A program made the position numbers and the translations under genes. The notes beneath the pieces were generated by a model. That model saw only the letters and a program-made list of their open reading frames with translations. It was not told the origin of the DNA and did not search any database. Below, piece after piece: positions 644 to 31,302 of a DNA stretch of 43,695 nt. Source of the DNA: Vogesella urethralis (GTDB taxonomy: Bacteria; Pseudomonadota; Gammaproteobacteria; Burkholderiales; Chromobacteriaceae); the NCBI RefSeq assembly GCF_007644045.2, contig NZ_VMDW02000144.1:1-43695 (forward strand), in the 5' to 3' direction. Each line of letters opens with the position of its first letter. Within the stretch, counting starts at the first letter, position 1.

Positions 644-1699
644 TCAGCACAACTCCCGGTAAATCTGCGCAAAGCGCTGCATGTTCTGGCGATACAGGCC
701 CTTGGCCTCCACCAGCTGGCGGTTCAGCGCCGCGGCACTGGCCAGTCGTGCATTATCCCCCGCTTGCCGCAGCTGCGTCTTCAGCGCGCAGCCCAGCCGG
801 CCCAGGTCTTCCACGATGGCGCCGTTGACGCCGTCCAGCACCCACTCCAGGTTGGCCGGCAGGTTGGACAGCACCGGCAAGCAGCCGTGGCCCATCGCTT
901 CCAGCAGGCTGATGCTGGTGGCGTCGCTCATCGGCACGCTGACAAACACGCGCGCGTCGCGGTAGTGCTGCGCCAGCACATCGGGCGCCACGAAGCCGGT
1001 GAACACCACCCGCTGCAGCCCCAGCTGCTGCGCCAGCGCCTGCAAGTTGCGGGTTTCGTCGCCACTGGCGGCCACGGTCAACTGCCAGCCGGCCAGCGCA
1101 GTGTCGGCTTCCACCTCGGCCCAGGCGCGGAGAATGGCGTCGATGCGATACAGCGGTTTGTGCAACCGGCACGACAGCACCGACAGCGGCTTGGCAGCGA
1201 TGTCCGGCGGTGGCGGCAGCGCGTCCATGCCGAAATTCAGCACGTCCATGCGCGCCACGGCGGCCAGCTGGCGGCACACGGCGGCCATGTGCAGCGAATC
1301 GCTGGTGACGGCGCTGGCAGCGGCCAGGTTGGCCGCGACCATTTTTTTCATCAAGGCGTTCTGTTGCGGCAGCAGCAGCACGTCCGAACCCCAGGTGGTG
1401 AGCACCCACGGCAACTTGCGGCCGGCCAGCGCACGGCGCGCGTGCCAGGCCACGCTATTGGCCTGGTGCACGTGCACGATGTCGGGCTGCACCTCGTCGA
1501 TCAGCCGCGCCAGGCGGGCGGCGGTGCCCAGCGCCTTCAGGCTGAAATCCACCGCCAGCACACGGCCCAGGTTGGGCACCTGGTAGCGCGGTGGCAGCGG
1601 GCCATTGCTGGCCAGGTGTACCTCGCTGACGTGTGGCGCAATGCCGGCCAGGTAGCGGTGGGTGTGCACCGAGGCGGAGCCGATCAGAAGAAGCTTCAT
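644..1699 (-). CDS. GT4-family glycosyltransferase
   Basis: Predicted cytoplasmic sugar transferase of 351 aa for surface-polysaccharide assembly. It has the two-Rossmann GT-B layout of family 4. The N-terminus is a beta strand (MKLLLIGSASVHTHRY) and the acceptor half has a DIVHVHQAN segment. The C-terminal donor-binding half has the family's E-x7-E region around LLEAMGHGCLPVLS and LEWVLDGVNG. The donor sugar cannot be read from sequence. It is the most distal gene seen in the minus-strand polysaccharide cluster and ends a few bases from the tandem repeat array. The ATG at 1699 has only a weak ribosome binding site. Family assignment is firm; the linkage made is unknown. Confidence 0.85.
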   Translation of the reverse strand: MKLLLIGSASVHTHRYLAGIAPHVSEVHLASNGPLPPRYQVPNLGRVLAVDFSLKALGTAARLARLIDEVQPDIVHVHQANSVAWHARRALAGRKLPWVLTTWGSDVLLLPQQNALMKKMVAANLAAASAVTSDSLHMAAVCRQLAAVARMDVLNFGMDALPPPPDIAAKPLSVLSCRLHKPLYRIDAILRAWAEVEADTALAGWQLTVAASGDETRNLQALAQQLGLQRVVFTGFVAPDVLAQHYRDARVFVSVPMSDATSISLLEAMGHGCLPVLSNLPANLEWVLDGVNGAIVEDLGRLGCALKTQLRQAGDNARLASAAALNRQLVEAKGLYRQNMQRFAQIYRELC

Positions 1700-12412: not shown

Positions 12413-12489
<77 letters not shown>

Positions 12490-26696: not shown

Positions 26697-28301
26697 TTAC
26701 GGCGACAGCACCGCCTTCACACCGGCCCAATCCAGCCCGAAACGCGCCAGATACTTGCGCAGGCGGTCGGCGTCGTTGGCCGTGCTGCGCGCCTGGCGCG
26801 ACACCGCGAACAGGCAGCGGCCCGCTTCGGACAAACTGTCGGCGTCGCGGCACGCTGCCAGTACCGCCTCCAACTGGGCCTGATCGAACAGGTCGAGCTG
26901 CGCGTCCGGCAAGACCTGCTGCCATAAGGCCGGCGCCAGCGCCGCCCCGTTGGCCACCGGCGCTTGCCAGCCATCGCGCAAGCGCGCCATTTCCTCGGTT
27001 ACCTCGGCCAGGCCGATATTACCGTCGTCGGCCAGCGTCGCCATGCGGGTTACCGACGCCGACAGCTCGCGAAAATTACCCTGCCAGCTGGCCTCGGCCG
27101 ACGTGGCAAAGGCCAGGTATGCCTCGCGGGCCTCGCGGCTGAAACGCACCCGCTCGCCGCTTTCGCTGGCGTGGCGCAGCAGCTCGAACTCCAGGTTGGG
27201 CGCAATGTCCTCGCGCCGGGCGGCCAAGCCCGGCAAGGTAAAGCGCCACAGGTTGATGCGGGCGTACAGGTCTTCGCGAAAGCGCCCGGCCGCCACCCAT
27301 TGCTGTAGGTCTCGCACCGTACCGCACACCAGCTGGAAACTGCTGCTGACTTCGCGGTCGCTGCCGTAGGGGAAGAAGCGCTTTTCCTCGATGGCTTTCA
27401 ACAGCATGGCCTGTTCGTCCAAGCCCAGCTCGCCGATTTCGTCCAGAAACAGCATGCCGCCATCGGCGCGTTTGAGCAGGCCCTCGCGCGCTTGCAAGGC
27501 GCCGGTAAACGCGCCCTTCACATGGCCGAACAGGGCCGACATCGCCCCGTCCCCGCGCAAGGTGGCGCAGTTCACCTCTACCAGTGGCCCGCTCAACTGA
27601 TGGCGTGCCTTTTTCAGCTGATACAGGCGGCGCGCCAGAAAGCTCTTGCCGGCGCCGGTCGGCCCGCACAGCAACACCGGCGCACCGGAACGGGTAGCCA
27701 CCCGTTCGATCTGGCCGATCATGCGGTTGAAGGCCTCGTTACGGGTGGCGATCCCGCTCTTCAGCAAGGCCAGCGTATCGTCGCGCTGGCGGGCAAAACG
27801 CTGCGCAATCTGGTCGTAGCGCGACAAATCGAGGTCGATCACCTTGACCGTCCCCGTGTAGCCGTCGTCGGCACGGCCGATACTGCTTTGCAGCAGCCGC
27901 CCCGGGATATGGCGCGACTCGGCCAGCAAAAACCAGCAAATCTGCGCCACGTGGGTACCGGTGGTGATGTGCAACAGGTAGTCCTCGTGCTCGCTGTCGA
28001 ACGGGTAGGCGGCGGCAAAGTCGTGCAGCGCGGCGTACACCTCTTCGAAATCCCATGGGTCACGCAGGTTGCAGGTTTCCAGCACCACCTCGGTATCGGG
28101 CGAGACACGGCGGATGTCGTCGGCAGTCAGTTGCGCCAGCTTCAGACTGTGGTTGTCGTGCAGTAAATGCAACCGGTGCAGCTGCCATTGCGGCTGGCGG
28201 CAAATGCCGACGCTGGGCCGCCATTTCTTCCAGCGCGCTTCGCCAAAACCGCCTTTGTCCAGCACCGTACCCAGAAACCCGATGGCAACCTGCTTGCGCA
28301 T
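26697..28301 (-). CDS. rtcR: Sigma-54-dependent RNA-repair regulator RtcR
   Basis: A 534-aa bacterial enhancer-binding protein of the RtcR type. Residues 1-180 form the N-terminal CARF-like sensor domain, with TIGTKG-like opening residues (AIGFLGTVLDKGG). The AAA+ domain has Walker A GPTGAGKS (213-220), the sigma-54-contact GAFTGA loop (263-268) and Walker B FLDEIGEL (D287, E288). A helix-turn-helix region closes the protein. In Salmonella RtcR is activated by damaged-tRNA ligands and turns on the rtc operon. Here it is divergent from a sigma-54 promoter that leads into tRNA-like leader RNA, slipin and rtcB. Confidence 0.95.
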   Translation of the reverse strand: MRKQVAIGFLGTVLDKGGFGEARWKKWRPSVGICRQPQWQLHRLHLLHDNHSLKLAQLTADDIRRVSPDTEVVLETCNLRDPWDFEEVYAALHDFAAAYPFDSEHEDYLLHITTGTHVAQICWFLLAESRHIPGRLLQSSIGRADDGYTGTVKVIDLDLSRYDQIAQRFARQRDDTLALLKSGIATRNEAFNRMIGQIERVATRSGAPVLLCGPTGAGKSFLARRLYQLKKARHQLSGPLVEVNCATLRGDGAMSALFGHVKGAFTGALQAREGLLKRADGGMLFLDEIGELGLDEQAMLLKAIEEKRFFPYGSDREVSSSFQLVCGTVRDLQQWVAAGRFREDLYARINLWRFTLPGLAARREDIAPNLEFELLRHASESGERVRFSREAREAYLAFATSAEASWQGNFRELSASVTRMATLADDGNIGLAEVTEEMARLRDGWQAPVANGAALAPALWQQVLPDAQLDLFDQAQLEAVLAACRDADSLSEAGRCLFAVSRQARSTANDADRLRKYLARFGLDWAGVKAVLSP

Positions 28302-28451
28302 GACAACTATCCCAAAAGATAAATTTACTAGCCAAAAGTATCATATTTCCAATGGCATGCTTGGCAAAATTGTCGACAGCAGCCTTAAGAATAAAAATAA
28401 AAACATTCAAAAACAGCCACTTGCAAGATTTTTTCAGCTTTAGCACCCCGC
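28302..28451. promoter_or_regulatory. AT-rich rtcR / RNA-repair intergenic region
   Basis: About 150 bp, far richer in A and T than its surroundings, lie between rtcR and the sigma-54 promoter. This is where RtcR upstream activating sites and a DNA-bending site would be expected. An 8-bp palindrome TGTCGACA (28371-28378) is the only clear symmetric element. No gene is seen. Confidence 0.5.
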
Positions 28452-28467
28452 TGGCACGCTATTGGCA
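28452..28467 (+). promoter_or_regulatory. Sigma-54 promoter of the RNA-repair transcript
   Basis: TGGCACG-CTAT-TGGCA matches the -24/-12 consensus (TGGCACG-N4-TTGCW) with one mismatch, and the invariant GG and GC are spaced by 10 bases. It points toward slipin and rtcB. With RtcR divergent, this is the expected target; transcription would begin near 28478. Confidence 0.85.
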
Positions 28468-28590
28468 ATAGTCAACACACTGCCCAACGCAGCACGGTGC
28501 CCACGGGAGGCGGTTGCTAGCCGCCCCGGTGCCCGGTACCAGGCCCGCCTGTCGTAGCCGGGTATGCCGCCCCTTGTTGCACGGCAGTAC

Positions 28591-28636
28591 GGCGATGGCA
28601 GTGGTTGCCACGCCGGGTTCGACTCCCGGCATCGCC
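28591..28636 (+). ncRNA. Mini-tRNA-like fold (acceptor plus T arm only)
   Basis: A 7-bp acceptor-like stem GGCGATG (28591-28597)/CATCGCC (28630-28636) abuts a perfect T arm: CCGGG (28613-28617), 7-nt loop TTCGACT, CCCGG (28625-28629). This is the junction found in real tRNAs. The D and anticodon arms are replaced by a stub hairpin GTGG-TTG-CCAC (28601-28611). It cannot decode; it is a tRNA mimic or relic. Confidence 0.75.
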
Positions 28637-28707
28637 TCCTCGGTAGCTCATTTGGTAGAGCAACAGCCTGTTCGCTGTGTGTAGCGGGTTCGATTCCCGT
28701 CCGAAAC
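28637..28707 (+). ncRNA. Full tRNA-like fold with a defective acceptor
   Basis: It begins at the base after the mini fold. It has a 7-nt acceptor strand, TA, D arm GCTC-ATTTGGTA-GAGC (28646-28661), a 5-bp anticodon-like arm ACAGC/GCTGT (28663-28678) with a 6-nt loop CTGTTC, a 5-nt variable region, and T arm GCGGG-TTCGATT-CCCGT (28684-28700). Only the inner 4 bp of the acceptor stem pair, there is no encoded CCA, and the loop is one base short, so it is unlikely to be a translating tRNA. It resembles tRNA-mimic modules of bacterial Y RNAs. Confidence 0.78.
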
Positions 28708-28765
28708 GCCCTCTCAAGGCGAGTGTGTCAATGCAGTAGCCGAGCCGGTGCGGCCAACCCGCCGC

Positions 28766-28890
28766 CACACCGCTAGCCAGCCCGCGACCCGTTGCCGCAG
28801 CAACATCCGGGGGCAGCCACCGCGTAGTCAGCGGCGCTGCCCACCCACGATGCCCCTGCCGCACCCCGTCGCCCGCCCGCTAGCGGTGTG
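28766..28890 (+). ncRNA. 12-bp-closed multi-hairpin RNA domain
   Basis: CACACCGCTAGC (28766-28777) and GCTAGCGGTGTG (28879-28890) are perfect complements enclosing about 100 nt. Inside are GTTGC-CGCA-GCAAC (28791-28804) and GGGCAGC/GCTGCCC (28811-28842). A long end-closing helix with internal modules is the general plan of Y-like RNAs. The domain ends 30 nt before the slipin start and could also act as a leader element. Confidence 0.6.
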
Positions 28891-28920
28891 CCCCCGGCTC
28901 ACCCGAACAAGGAGCCCAAG

Positions 28921-30066
28921 ATGCTAAAGAAACTGCTGGTCAAGAAAAACGAGCGCGGCCTGCTGCTGCGCGAAGGCGACTTCGAATGCCTGCTGCCGCC
29001 AGGCCGCCACTACCGCTTCGACCCCTTCGGGCAGCTGACCCTGGAAACCATCAGCCTGCAGCAGGCGCGCTTCGAGCACCCGCTGGCCGACTACCTGCGC
29101 CAGCATGCACCCGAGGTGGTAGCCGCCCACTTTCACGAGGTGTCGCTGGGCGACGACGAAGCGGCGCTGCGCTACGAACGCGAGCAGCTGGTAGAGATCC
29201 TGCCCCCCGGCCATAACGGCCTGTACTGGCAGGACCGGGTGCCGATGCACGTCGAACGCGTCAACCTGCGTGACGCCGCGGCCCTGCCCGCCGCTTTGCA
29301 GGCACGCCTGACGCAAACCCTGCTACGCGGCCGCCAGATTGCCGGCCTGAACGCGGTGCTGAATGCGCAAGTACCGGCCGGCTTTGTCGGCCTGCTACGC
29401 AGCGAAGGCGACGCGCTGCGGCTGTTGGCGCCGGGCCGCTACTGCTACTGGCGCTTCAACCGTGACATTGCGGTAGAGCTGGTCGATACCCGCTTGCAGG
29501 CACTGGAAGTCAGCGGCCAGGAAATCCTGACCCGCGACAAGGTCAGCCTGCGGCTGAACCTGAACGCCAACTGGCAGTTCCACGACGTGCTGCAAGCCTT
29601 CAGCCAGCTGCCCAAACCGGCCGAGCACCTGTACCGCGAGCTGCAACTGCTGCTGCGCGCCGCCGTGGGTACCCGCACGCTGGATGAACTGCTGGAAAAC
29701 AAGCAGCTGCTGGACCAGGAGCTGCTGCACAAGGCACGCACCCGGCTGGCCGTGTTCGGCATCGACCTGCAAGCGCTGGGGGTGAAAGACATCATCCTGC
29801 CCGGCGACATGAAGGCCTTGCTGGCCAAGGTGGTAGAAGCCGAAAAAGCGGCGCAGGCCAACGTCATCCGCCGCCGCGAGGAAACCGGCGCCACCCGCTC
29901 GCTGCTGAACACCGCCAAAGTGATGGAAGACAACCCCACCGCGCTGCGACTGAAAGAGCTGGAAACGCTGGAACGCCTGGCAGAGCGCATCGACAAGATT
30001 TCGGTGGTAGGCGGCCTGGATCAATTGCTGAACGGTTTGGTCACCCTGCGGCCAACCTCACCCTGA
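28921..30066 (+). CDS. Slipin (SPFH/band-7) protein of the RNA-repair operon
   Basis: A 381-aa SPFH-domain protein of the slipin group. The N-terminal stretch (LVKKNERGLLLREGDFECLL, then PPGRHYRFDPFG) matches those linked to RNA-repair genes; it lacks the obvious membrane hairpin of classical slipins. The SPFH core covers about residues 165-300 (VELVDTRLQALEVSGQEILT, LRLNLNANWQFHD), and a helical tail includes KVVEAEKAAQANVIRRREET. AAGGAG stands 6 bases before the ATG at 28921. Slipins next to RtcB have been noted in comparative surveys of RNA-repair operons; the molecular role is unknown. rtcB starts 12 bases later. Confidence 0.87.
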   Translation: MLKKLLVKKNERGLLLREGDFECLLPPGRHYRFDPFGQLTLETISLQQARFEHPLADYLRQHAPEVVAAHFHEVSLGDDEAALRYEREQLVEILPPGHNGLYWQDRVPMHVERVNLRDAAALPAALQARLTQTLLRGRQIAGLNAVLNAQVPAGFVGLLRSEGDALRLLAPGRYCYWRFNRDIAVELVDTRLQALEVSGQEILTRDKVSLRLNLNANWQFHDVLQAFSQLPKPAEHLYRELQLLLRAAVGTRTLDELLENKQLLDQELLHKARTRLAVFGIDLQALGVKDIILPGDMKALLAKVVEAEKAAQANVIRRREETGATRSLLNTAKVMEDNPTALRLKELETLERLAERIDKISVVGGLDQLLNGLVTLRPTSP

Positions 30067-30078
30067 CACGGAAACAAT

Positions 30079-31302
30079 ATGGATACCCGACAAGACTACG
30101 AACTGCTGCAACAGGACGGTGGCAGCCCGATCAAGATGTGGACCCGCGGTGTGCCGGTAGAAGACAGCGCGCGCCAGCAGCTGCTGCAAACGGCACAGCT
30201 GCCCTTCATCTTCAAGCACCTGGCGGTCATGCCCGACGTTCACCTGGGCAAAGGCTCCACCATCGGCAGCGTCATCCCCACCCAAGGCGCCATCATTCCG
30301 GCGGCAGTCGGCGTGGATATCGGCTGCGGCATGATGGCCGCCCGTACCACGCTGACAGCCAGCGACCTGCCGGACAACCTGGCCGGCCTGCGCAGCGCCA
30401 TCGAAGCGGCGGTACCGCACGGCCGCACCAGCGGCCCGCGCGACCAGGGCAGCTGGCACCAGCCCCCGGCCAGCGTAGACGCGGCCTGGGCCAAGCTGGC
30501 ACCGGCCTTTACCGCGCTGACGCAGAAATACCCGCGGCTGAAGAACACCAACAACTACAAGCACCTGGGCACGCTGGGTACCGGTAACCACTTCATTGAA
30601 GTGTGCCTGGACGAAGCCGAACGGGTGTGGGTGATGCTGCACTCCGGCTCACGCGGCGTCGGTAACGCCATCGGCAACCTGTTCATCGAACTGGCACAGG
30701 CCGACATGCGCCAACACATGGCCAACCTGCCCAGCCGCGACCTGGCCTACTTCGAAGAAGGCAGCCAGCACTTTGACGATTACGTCGCCGCCGTGGGCTG
30801 GGCGCAGGACTACGCCCGGCAGAACCGCATGGTGATGATGGAACACGTGGTGGCCGCCATGCGCCGCGTCATCAGCAAACCGTTTGCTGCCGACGTGGAA
30901 GCCGTGAACTGCCACCACAACTACGTGCAGCAGGAAACCCACTTCGGCCACCAGGTACTGGTCACGCGCAAGGGCGCGGTGGCGGCGCACAAAGGGCAGC
31001 TGGGCATCATCCCCGGCTCGATGGGGGCCAAAAGCTTCATCGTGCGCGGCCTGGGCAACGAGGAAGCGTTCTGTTCCTGCAGCCACGGCGCCGGCCGCCG
31101 CATGAGCCGCAGCGAAGCCAAACGCCGCTTTACCGTGGCCGACCAGATCGGCGCCACGGCACACGTGGAATGCCGCAAGGACGCCGCCGTCATCGACGAG
31201 ATCCCGATGGCCTACAAAGACATCGACGCCGTGATGCTGGCGCAGCAAAAACTGGTGGAAGTGGTACACACCTTGCGCCAGGTGGTGTGCGTGAAAGGCT
31301 GA
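30079..31302 (+). CDS. rtcB: RNA-splicing ligase RtcB
   Basis: A 407-aa GTP- and manganese-dependent ligase joining 2',3'-cyclic-phosphate or 3'-phosphate RNA ends to 5'-OH ends. Metal and nucleotide motifs are visible: MPDVHLGKGSTIG, VGVDIGCGM (D80, C83), GTGNHF, MLHSGSRGVGN, CHHNY, GSMGAKSF and the guanylylated histidine H336 in CSHGAGRRMSR. It is complete. No RtcA cyclase or archease gene accompanies it in the window. It is the last gene of the RtcR/sigma-54 unit. Confidence 0.96.
   Translation: MDTRQDYELLQQDGGSPIKMWTRGVPVEDSARQQLLQTAQLPFIFKHLAVMPDVHLGKGSTIGSVIPTQGAIIPAAVGVDIGCGMMAARTTLTASDLPDNLAGLRSAIEAAVPHGRTSGPRDQGSWHQPPASVDAAWAKLAPAFTALTQKYPRLKNTNNYKHLGTLGTGNHFIEVCLDEAERVWVMLHSGSRGVGNAIGNLFIELAQADMRQHMANLPSRDLAYFEEGSQHFDDYVAAVGWAQDYARQNRMVMMEHVVAAMRRVISKPFAADVEAVNCHHNYVQQETHFGHQVLVTRKGAVAAHKGQLGIIPGSMGAKSFIVRGLGNEEAFCSCSHGAGRRMSRSEAKRRFTVADQIGATAHVECRKDAAVIDEIPMAYKDIDAVMLAQQKLVEVVHTLRQVVCVKG

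Follow-up and report, generated by a model that had tools for sequence, protein, structure and literature searches.

The systems closest to the locus described here pair RNA repair with tRNA-like RNAs or with SPFH proteins. Passages of PMC7790460 describe RtcR control, a tRNA-mimic RNA and the RNA ligase RtcB for the Salmonella rsr-yrlBA-rtcBA operon, and the SPFH protein PaFlo8 belongs to the rtc locus of Pseudomonas aeruginosa according to the relevant parts of PMC13086221. In Anabaena, the regulator TrcR acts as a repressor of the trn tRNA operon as well as of rtcB and a slipin, as stated in parts of PMC10272220. tRNA-mimic RNAs in RtcR operons with Rsr and an SPFH protein in the P. aeruginosa rtc locus are already known; the vault particle, composed of major vault protein and vault RNA, is also among the closest known systems. 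Here, a stretch of 43,695 nucleotides (nt) from Vogesella urethralis (contig NZ_VMDW02000144.1, the window in the following) was analyzed, in which a leader RNA of about 440 nt with two tRNA-like modules precedes the gene of a slipin, an SPFH/Band-7 protein. We read this leader as a distinct structured RNA and functional partner of the downstream slipin, in place of Y RNA and Rsr, and give this reading about an even chance of being right. The open-licence PMC literature, a scope outside which the main RNA-repair survey lies, yielded no description of any tRNA-like RNA or structured leader that precedes slipin, and leader RNA and slipin together suggest an RNA-protein partnership so far undescribed.

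The locus shares RtcR control, a tRNA-mimic RNA and RtcB with rsr-yrlBA-rtcBA, whereas the neighboring protein is of the Ro60 type there and a slipin here. On the minus strand, rtcR (26697..28301) encodes an RNA-repair transcriptional activator with an RtcR domain (PF06956, E 1.9e-79) and a sigma-54 AAA+ domain (PF00158), as identified by family profile searches, and scores 806.9 bits with NF038308 (cut-off 650). Divergently, on the plus strand, a sigma-54 promoter TGGCACG-N4-TGGCA (28452..28467; found by pattern search as TGGCACGCTATTGGCA at 28452) leads into the leader, slipin (28921..30066, about 381 aa, PF01145) and rtcB (30079..31302, PF01139, E 5e-128). Divergent rtcR, sigma-54 promoter and rtcB make this an RtcR-controlled RNA-repair operon, and the promoter and gene placement previously proposed in a sequence-only reading of this DNA were borne out. 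Judged from the sequence, the likely start of slipin is ATG 28921 rather than the mechanically set GTG 28888, because AAGGAG precedes it at 28909-28914. The same reading had slipin standing in for an absent rsr, in line with which no TROVE/Rsr match (PF05731) was obtained in the window's own genome, although a divergent Rsr like that of locus L112, which matched the Ro60 vWA model only and thereby reveals limited sensitivity of the TROVE profile, could escape. RtcA cyclase (PF01137) gave no match in the own genome and was found in at least one relative, L033; this RtcB was matched in just 2 of 13 genomes of the genus.

The leader (28478-28917, 440 nt, plus strand) has a folding energy of -210.5 kcal/mol, at z -3.5 relative to 100 dinucleotide shuffles, which supports the earlier claim of a structured leader of this length. 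Its 5' domain (28478..28571) comprises a hairpin and an interrupted helix and scores 64.5 bits with the covariance model R1, of which it is a training sequence. Two tRNA-like modules follow, so that the tRNA mimics predicted by the sequence-only reading were indeed found. Module 1 (28591..28636) consists of acceptor stem, T-arm and a short hairpin without D-arm and anticodon arm, and reaches 35.2 bits with the mascRNA-menRNA family, below its cut-off of 42.5. Module 2 (28636..28711) was called by ARAGORN, contains D-, anticodon- and T-arms and lacks CCA; at 41.0 bits it clears the gathering score of the Rfam tRNA family (RF00005, cut-off 29), apart from which no Rfam family reached its cut-off on the leader. 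A short hairpin CGCC...GGCG (28708..28722) and a 3' domain with approximate borders (28739..28902) complete the RNA.

Covariation of the fold in related loci, a check that the sequence-only reading had called for, was observed. Alignment A4 comprises 24 sequences, namely the window and 23 of 35 listed loci, leaving out near copies (L032, L034, L038), L048 (no second module) and eight enterobacterial loci; alignment A6 additionally omits L049. In A4, 54 of 78 predicted pairs in 12 helices show double compensatory changes, and 91.9% of 1849 cells are paired. The covariation score of 0.480, as compared to 0.196 ± 0.008 for shuffled alignments and 0.07-0.11 for slid partners, is favored by the derivation of the structure from the same alignment, the rows of which are related. 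The T-arm helix of module 1 (helix 4) and helices 5, 7, and 8 of module 2 covary, the D-stem (helix 6) is invariant, and in the short hairpin (helix 9) 91.5% of cells are paired and 3 of 4 pairs double-changed; helices 10-12 of the 3' domain have 26 of 30 pairs double-changed at a lower pairing of 85.5-87.7%. Helix 1, with two pairs and none double-changed, was rejected as spurious since it involves untranscribed promoter bases. Moreover, R1, built from the 5' domain alone, recovered 23 of the 57 loci on which it had not been trained (E ≤ 0.01, E-values being rough), all on the slipin strand, and 13 of these have no rtcR in the fetched stretch. With strict filters, the 5' domain was the sole R1 match in its own genome and the window the only match among 369 class genomes; the scan also missed 20 other slipin genomes of that sample and is thus no evidence of absence.

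Linkage of the leader to slipin was followed in relatives obtained by a contig scan with 20 aligned slipins, from which the best 80 of 459 were taken as loci; the loci are related and not independent. ARAGORN detected tRNA genes 200-700 nt before slipin in 58 of 80 loci, with 72 of 72 calls on the slipin strand and a density of 1.8 per kb. By comparison, the density is 0-0.08 per kb both beyond 3 kb upstream and at 1-7 kb downstream, and 0.1-0.7 per kb at 0.7-3 kb upstream, where arrays occur. The 22 loci without a call include seven with a complete D-arm-to-T-arm element by pattern, ten with a T-arm only (L046, L048, and the eight enterobacterial loci), L061 and L066 with T-arm(s) and, in L066, an ARAGORN tRNA further up, L076 and L082, in which the pattern found neither T-arm nor module, and L074, whose contig has no upstream DNA. 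A strict test demanding at least 4 of 5 stem pairs, for which L074 was dropped, found a T-arm before slipin in 76 of 79 of these loci and in 20 of 20 loci of a phylum-wide sample, i.e., in 96 of 99; the gap between 58/80 and 76/79 reflects the differing sensitivity of ARAGORN, T-arm pattern and covariance model. The phylum-wide sample held 23 loci, with eight hits from outside the class; the window itself (L128), the truncated L141, and L023 were left out, and species of the first set may recur, L132 and L135 being from the same genomes as L019 and L021. The 21 slipin loci of the class-genome sample were not added to this count. Control segments contained a strict T-arm in 1/65, 2/72, 0/80, 0/63, and 0/78 cases (3/358), and mononucleotide shuffles in 6/1560. 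A tandem pair was present in 52/79 and 18/20 loci (70/99), spaced by 61-81 nt with a median of 73.

The leader RNA follows slipin, not rtcR or rtcB. Where the fetched stretch includes rtcR, 40 of 42 loci have a T-arm upstream of slipin; where it does not, 36 of 37 have one, as do 22 of the 23 loci that lack both rtcR and rtcB in the stretch. Where rtcB is located upstream of slipin (L084, L092, L096, L101) the module is still found 370-410 nt before slipin. Among 13 rtcR loci in 12 of 369 class genomes, both loci with slipin as first gene, one of them the window, carry two or three leader T-arms, as compared to 0 of 7 with rtcB first, by which the leader RNA was rejected as a feature of RtcR operons in general; the rtcR locus L114 has no T-arm and no ORF of 80 aa on the leader side. 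Furthermore, PF01139 was searched in 28 genomes that have no rtcB close to slipin. In 13 of these, RtcB was not matched at all, and the T-arm was kept in 13 of 13; several of the 13 are metagenome-assembled genomes, in which the absence is uncertain, and L065, L067, L070, and L103 are titled as strains. The remaining 15 of 28 represent at most weak enrichment over the base rate of 36 in 114 class genomes. Two roles offered by the sequence-only reading, RtcB substrate and RtcR decoy, did not hold up as general ones, since the RNA persists in the 22 loci with neither gene in the stretch and in the 13 genomes without RtcB match, and is missing from the rtcB-first rtcR loci. Of its three suggestions, the last, which places the RNA in the slipin complex, is the best fit; the linkage is conserved, and binding itself we infer.

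The main rival is a cis-regulatory leader, in which the tRNA-like pair would serve as an operator in the slipin mRNA. Binding or cleavage of this operator by slipin, RtcB or an enzyme of tRNA processing would couple expression or mRNA stability to the state of the tRNA pool. Operators resembling tRNA exist in some synthetase mRNAs, and the RNA immediately precedes slipin, shares its strand and travels with this gene upon changes of operon order. We nevertheless regard this rival as somewhat unlikely: the RNA is long, at about 440 nt, and has several covarying domains, its consensus helices stop before the ribosome-binding site, and control is already provided by sigma-54 and RtcR in rtcR-linked loci. 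Several observations, some of which fit such an element, weigh against the leader being a partner RNA of slipin. It is in cis to slipin in all loci examined, as equally expected of a cis-regulatory element, and no terminator was found between leader and slipin in the window, so that a free RNA would need processing. The strict test found no T-arm in L062, L076, and L082 (a looser pattern finds one in L062), a tandem pair is missing in 29 of 99 loci, and of three rtcR loci with a TROVE/Ro60-type protein first only L104, not L107 or L112, has a T-arm or mimic. Enterobacterial leaders keep a T-arm and parts resembling the 5' and 3' domains and have lost the second module, leaving a single T-arm; 38 of 72 leader modules pass an anticodon test, as detailed below; and the slipin start is uncertain in four loci. 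The latter (L061, L066, L076, L088), for which the start was set from fetch coordinates in the T-arm and linkage counts, show longer slipin matches of about 1.5 kb, with the best piece starting inside the protein, which points to an insertion or an altered N-terminal part.

Direct comparison with YrlA sets the leader apart from Y RNAs. YrlA has one permuted module on a Y stem, whereas the slipin leader has two tandem tRNA-like modules as well as 5' and 3' domains; the window scores 29.6 bits with the YrlA model (RF02553, cut-off 69), and among the 37 of 80 named genomes searched with RF02553 and PF05731, none exceeded the YrlA cut-off and none contained TROVE. Membership of the leader in the YrlA/Y RNAs was rejected on these grounds. 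The T-arm of module 1 is followed by the D-arm of module 2, and the YrlA model aligns weakly across this junction; weak YrlA matches also occurred in 7 of 14 control genomes, plausibly at tandem ordinary tRNAs. In L104, a YrlA-like tRNA mimic (1142-1247, minus strand) separates rtcR from a TROVE gene; its 37.9 bits fall short of the YrlA cut-off of 69. It occupies the same position in the same order as the leader in the window, and the slipin leader is therefore read as the RNA partner of slipin. A sigma-54-like site before the L104 mimic, TTGGTACG...ATGC, was recognized on visual inspection and escaped the pattern search.

PaFlo8 is a further point of comparison, being an SPFH protein in a locus with rtcR, rtcB, and rtcA; judged by locus position, it probably belongs to the same family as the window slipin. 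The relevant parts of PMC13086221 describe no RNA with it, and 'tRNA' occurs 0 times in the main text. The Anabaena TrcR regulon likewise combines tRNA genes, rtcB and a slipin, not necessarily of the same subfamily, under one regulator that answers translational stress, but the parts of PMC10272220 concerned describe a different regulator, unlinked genes and an operon of 26 tRNA genes instead of a mimic pair.

Odd loops, or anticodons not in use among bacteria, occur in about half of the leader modules, and most modules lack CCA, which marks them as mimics rather than spare tRNAs. The anticodon loop of module 2 of the window has 6 nt and the two-letter anticodon 'gt' (ARAGORN type '???') in place of the 7 nt and usable anticodon of a decoding tRNA. 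In addition, its acceptor stem is not followed by CCA, and its score is the lowest of 57 tRNA matches in the genome; these features ruled it out as an ordinary tRNA gene. As a rule, bacteria do not use anticodons with A34, except ACG, or those reading stop codons. On this basis, 34 of 72 leader modules are odd, 20 having a loop of other than 7 nt and 14 an anticodon not in use, as compared to 3 among the 84 tRNAs that these loci hold farther upstream (two loops and one anticodon; Fisher p 4e-11, the loci not being independent), and an ordinary tRNA gene is thereby ruled out for about half of the other copies. This comparison is conservative because, of the three odd 'array' tRNAs, those of L066 and L088 are in fact leader modules that the uncertain slipin start has shifted out of place. 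CCA is encoded by 13/72 leader modules versus 74/84 tRNAs further upstream. The T-loop TTCGA and the D-loop GG, which build the tRNA elbow, are almost invariant, and UUCG loops occur in modules of Pseudomonas (L027, L042, L081).

That the modules are ordinary stress-induced tRNA genes replacing damaged tRNAs is hardly credible, since 34 of 72 are unable to decode normally, few encode CCA and the window module is at odds with it by its 6-nt loop; the 38 modules with a 7-nt loop and an anticodon in use, whole arrays with normal anticodons further upstream (L044, L055, L068, L086, L090, L091, L093, L095) and the Anabaena TrcR regulon (PMC10272220, in the parts concerned) are nonetheless in its favor. 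The modules might also act as bait for anticodon nucleases, invading or host tRNases cutting them instead of tRNAs, which would spare tRNAs or yield 2',3'-cyclic ends feeding RtcR. Among the parts compared in four closely related Pseudomonas leaders, the anticodon loop indeed changes fastest (mean pairwise difference 0.67; stem 0.05; overall 0.12), and anticodons vary widely from locus to locus. However, the loop is not the fastest part in the other three groups compared, with values of 0.17 in Burkholderia as opposed to 0.56 for the D-loop, 0.38 in termite-gut beta as opposed to 0.53 for the stem, and 0.43 in Undibacterium as opposed to 0.42 overall; a GNRA tetraloop closes the anticodon stem in Burkholderia L029, L030, L032, L034, and L088, and module 1 of the window as well as the enterobacterial copies have no anticodon arm. 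Moreover, the RNA is kept in genomes where RtcB was not found, and the tRNA-like domain of YrlA is, in passages of the published work, reported as no substrate of an anticodon nuclease, though a role as competitive inhibitor is suggested there. Taken together, we consider bait a rather improbable role. It is more improbable still that the modules are processing punctuation only, i.e., RNase P or RNase E cleavage signals whose sole role would be to separate the slipin mRNA from a 5' RNA. Acceptor stem and T-arm form the minimal RNase P substrate, and the T-arm is the part kept longest, but the tandem pair at its 61-81-nt spacing in 70 of 99 loci, the kept D-loop and the anticodon stem would be left unexplained.

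Regarding the presumed protein partner, the slipin carries a Band-7/SPFH domain (PF01145), and its AlphaFold2 model (mean pLDDT 84.6) displays two extra N-terminal SPFH1-like beta modules, the SPFH domain and a long C-terminal helix. Its maximum 19-residue hydropathy is 1.41, and 74 of 80 relatives stay below 1.6; by hydropathy there is no N-terminal membrane anchor. The slipin is thus predicted to be a soluble three-module SPFH protein that may contact the membrane peripherally, and it is probably oligomeric. Orthology to major vault protein, in which a series of MVP repeats precedes an SPFH-like shoulder, was set aside, as the N-terminal modules do not single it out. The slipin alignments A2 and A3 included 57 and 45 of 81 sequences, respectively, and none of the phage records encodes this slipin at the limit used.

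We propose that RtcR senses damaged tRNA and would fire the sigma-54 promoter, from which a single transcript would yield the leader RNA and slipin, accompanied by rtcB in the window and by RlaP or further repair genes at other loci. The tRNA-like modules, which retain the elbow (D-loop GG, T-loop TTCGA) and in about half of the copies have given up a usable anticodon, would probably let RNase P and 3' processing free the RNA to act in trans. Ro60-type proteins form a ring, and the soluble, probably oligomeric slipin would probably bind the RNA as scaffold or tRNA-mimicking subunit, as Y RNA is bound by the Ro60 protein Rsr, with a possible role in sorting, sheltering or handling damaged tRNA. 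More speculatively, and on balance doubtfully, the system may be a new kind of bacterial ribonucleoprotein: a soluble SPFH cage or ring, induced by damaged tRNA and distributed across Pseudomonadota, whose RNA subunit of about 440 nt bears two tRNA mimics. In vault- or Ro60-like manner, such a particle would capture, sort or shelter broken tRNAs, which RtcB or RlaP would then repair, and it would be independent of RtcB in some hosts. If so, the RNA and ring-protein part of RtcR operons would be exchangeable (none, Y RNA with Rsr, or leader RNA with slipin). A conserved RNA tied to one SPFH subfamily free of membrane segments, in operons responsive to damaged tRNA, would offer a direct route to testing Y RNA and SPFH functions.

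As to regulation, a TGGCAC site precedes slipin in 36 of 42 rtcR-linked loci, mostly near -500 and in enterobacteria at -306 to -345. A palindrome TATC-N6-GATA (28308..28321) lies 144 nt ahead of the -24 element in the window. It is found exactly in 20 of 36 rtcR-linked relatives and with at most one mismatch in 33 of 36, located 102-147 nt before the sigma-54 site, as compared to 20 exact occurrences in 1800 mononucleotide shuffles, and is a probable upstream activating or binding site of RtcR. Scans for sigma-70 promoters and terminators gave nothing above shuffles.

Among the eight enterobacterial loci, R1 gave three matches at E 0.13-0.75 and none up to E 1 in the others. In L064, L065, L067, L069, and L070, slipin is followed by a nucleotidyltransferase-like ORF with no rtcB at the locus; the copy tested, that of L065, is RlaP (PF10127), and L064 and L069 encode RtcB elsewhere in the genome. 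In Escherichia coli, the reduced locus was present in 1624 of 5426 complete genomes (about 30%), which makes the system accessible. The reduced leader RNA was located at L144:4970-5316 and in L145, and the leader was unannotated in 12 of 12 rows listed. The locus adjoins yjbD in strain IAI39 and lies within the yjbD-lysC interval in PapRG-06-5; in both strains, slipin is followed by a gene with a nucleotidyltransferase domain, the 11-kb stretch contains no rtcR and the sigma-54 motif is kept, the TATC-N6-GATA palindrome being present in IAI39 only. The E. coli leader-slipin locus may be a second RtcR target away from rtcR.

Additional genes accompany some of the loci. The tRNA arrays named above comprise 5-14 genes, nearly all of which have normal anticodons; they share the strand of slipin, extend over no more than about 4.3 kb ahead of it and perhaps represent stress-induced tRNA sets. 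An ordinary tRNA-Met gene (67.4 bits) is located at 12413-12489 of the window. Accessory genes of slipin operons (L036:7172-7570, L039:7174-7620, L040:7239-7712, and L039:8901-10313) encode treble-clef proteins, a PNKP-type phosphatase and a HEAT-repeat protein.

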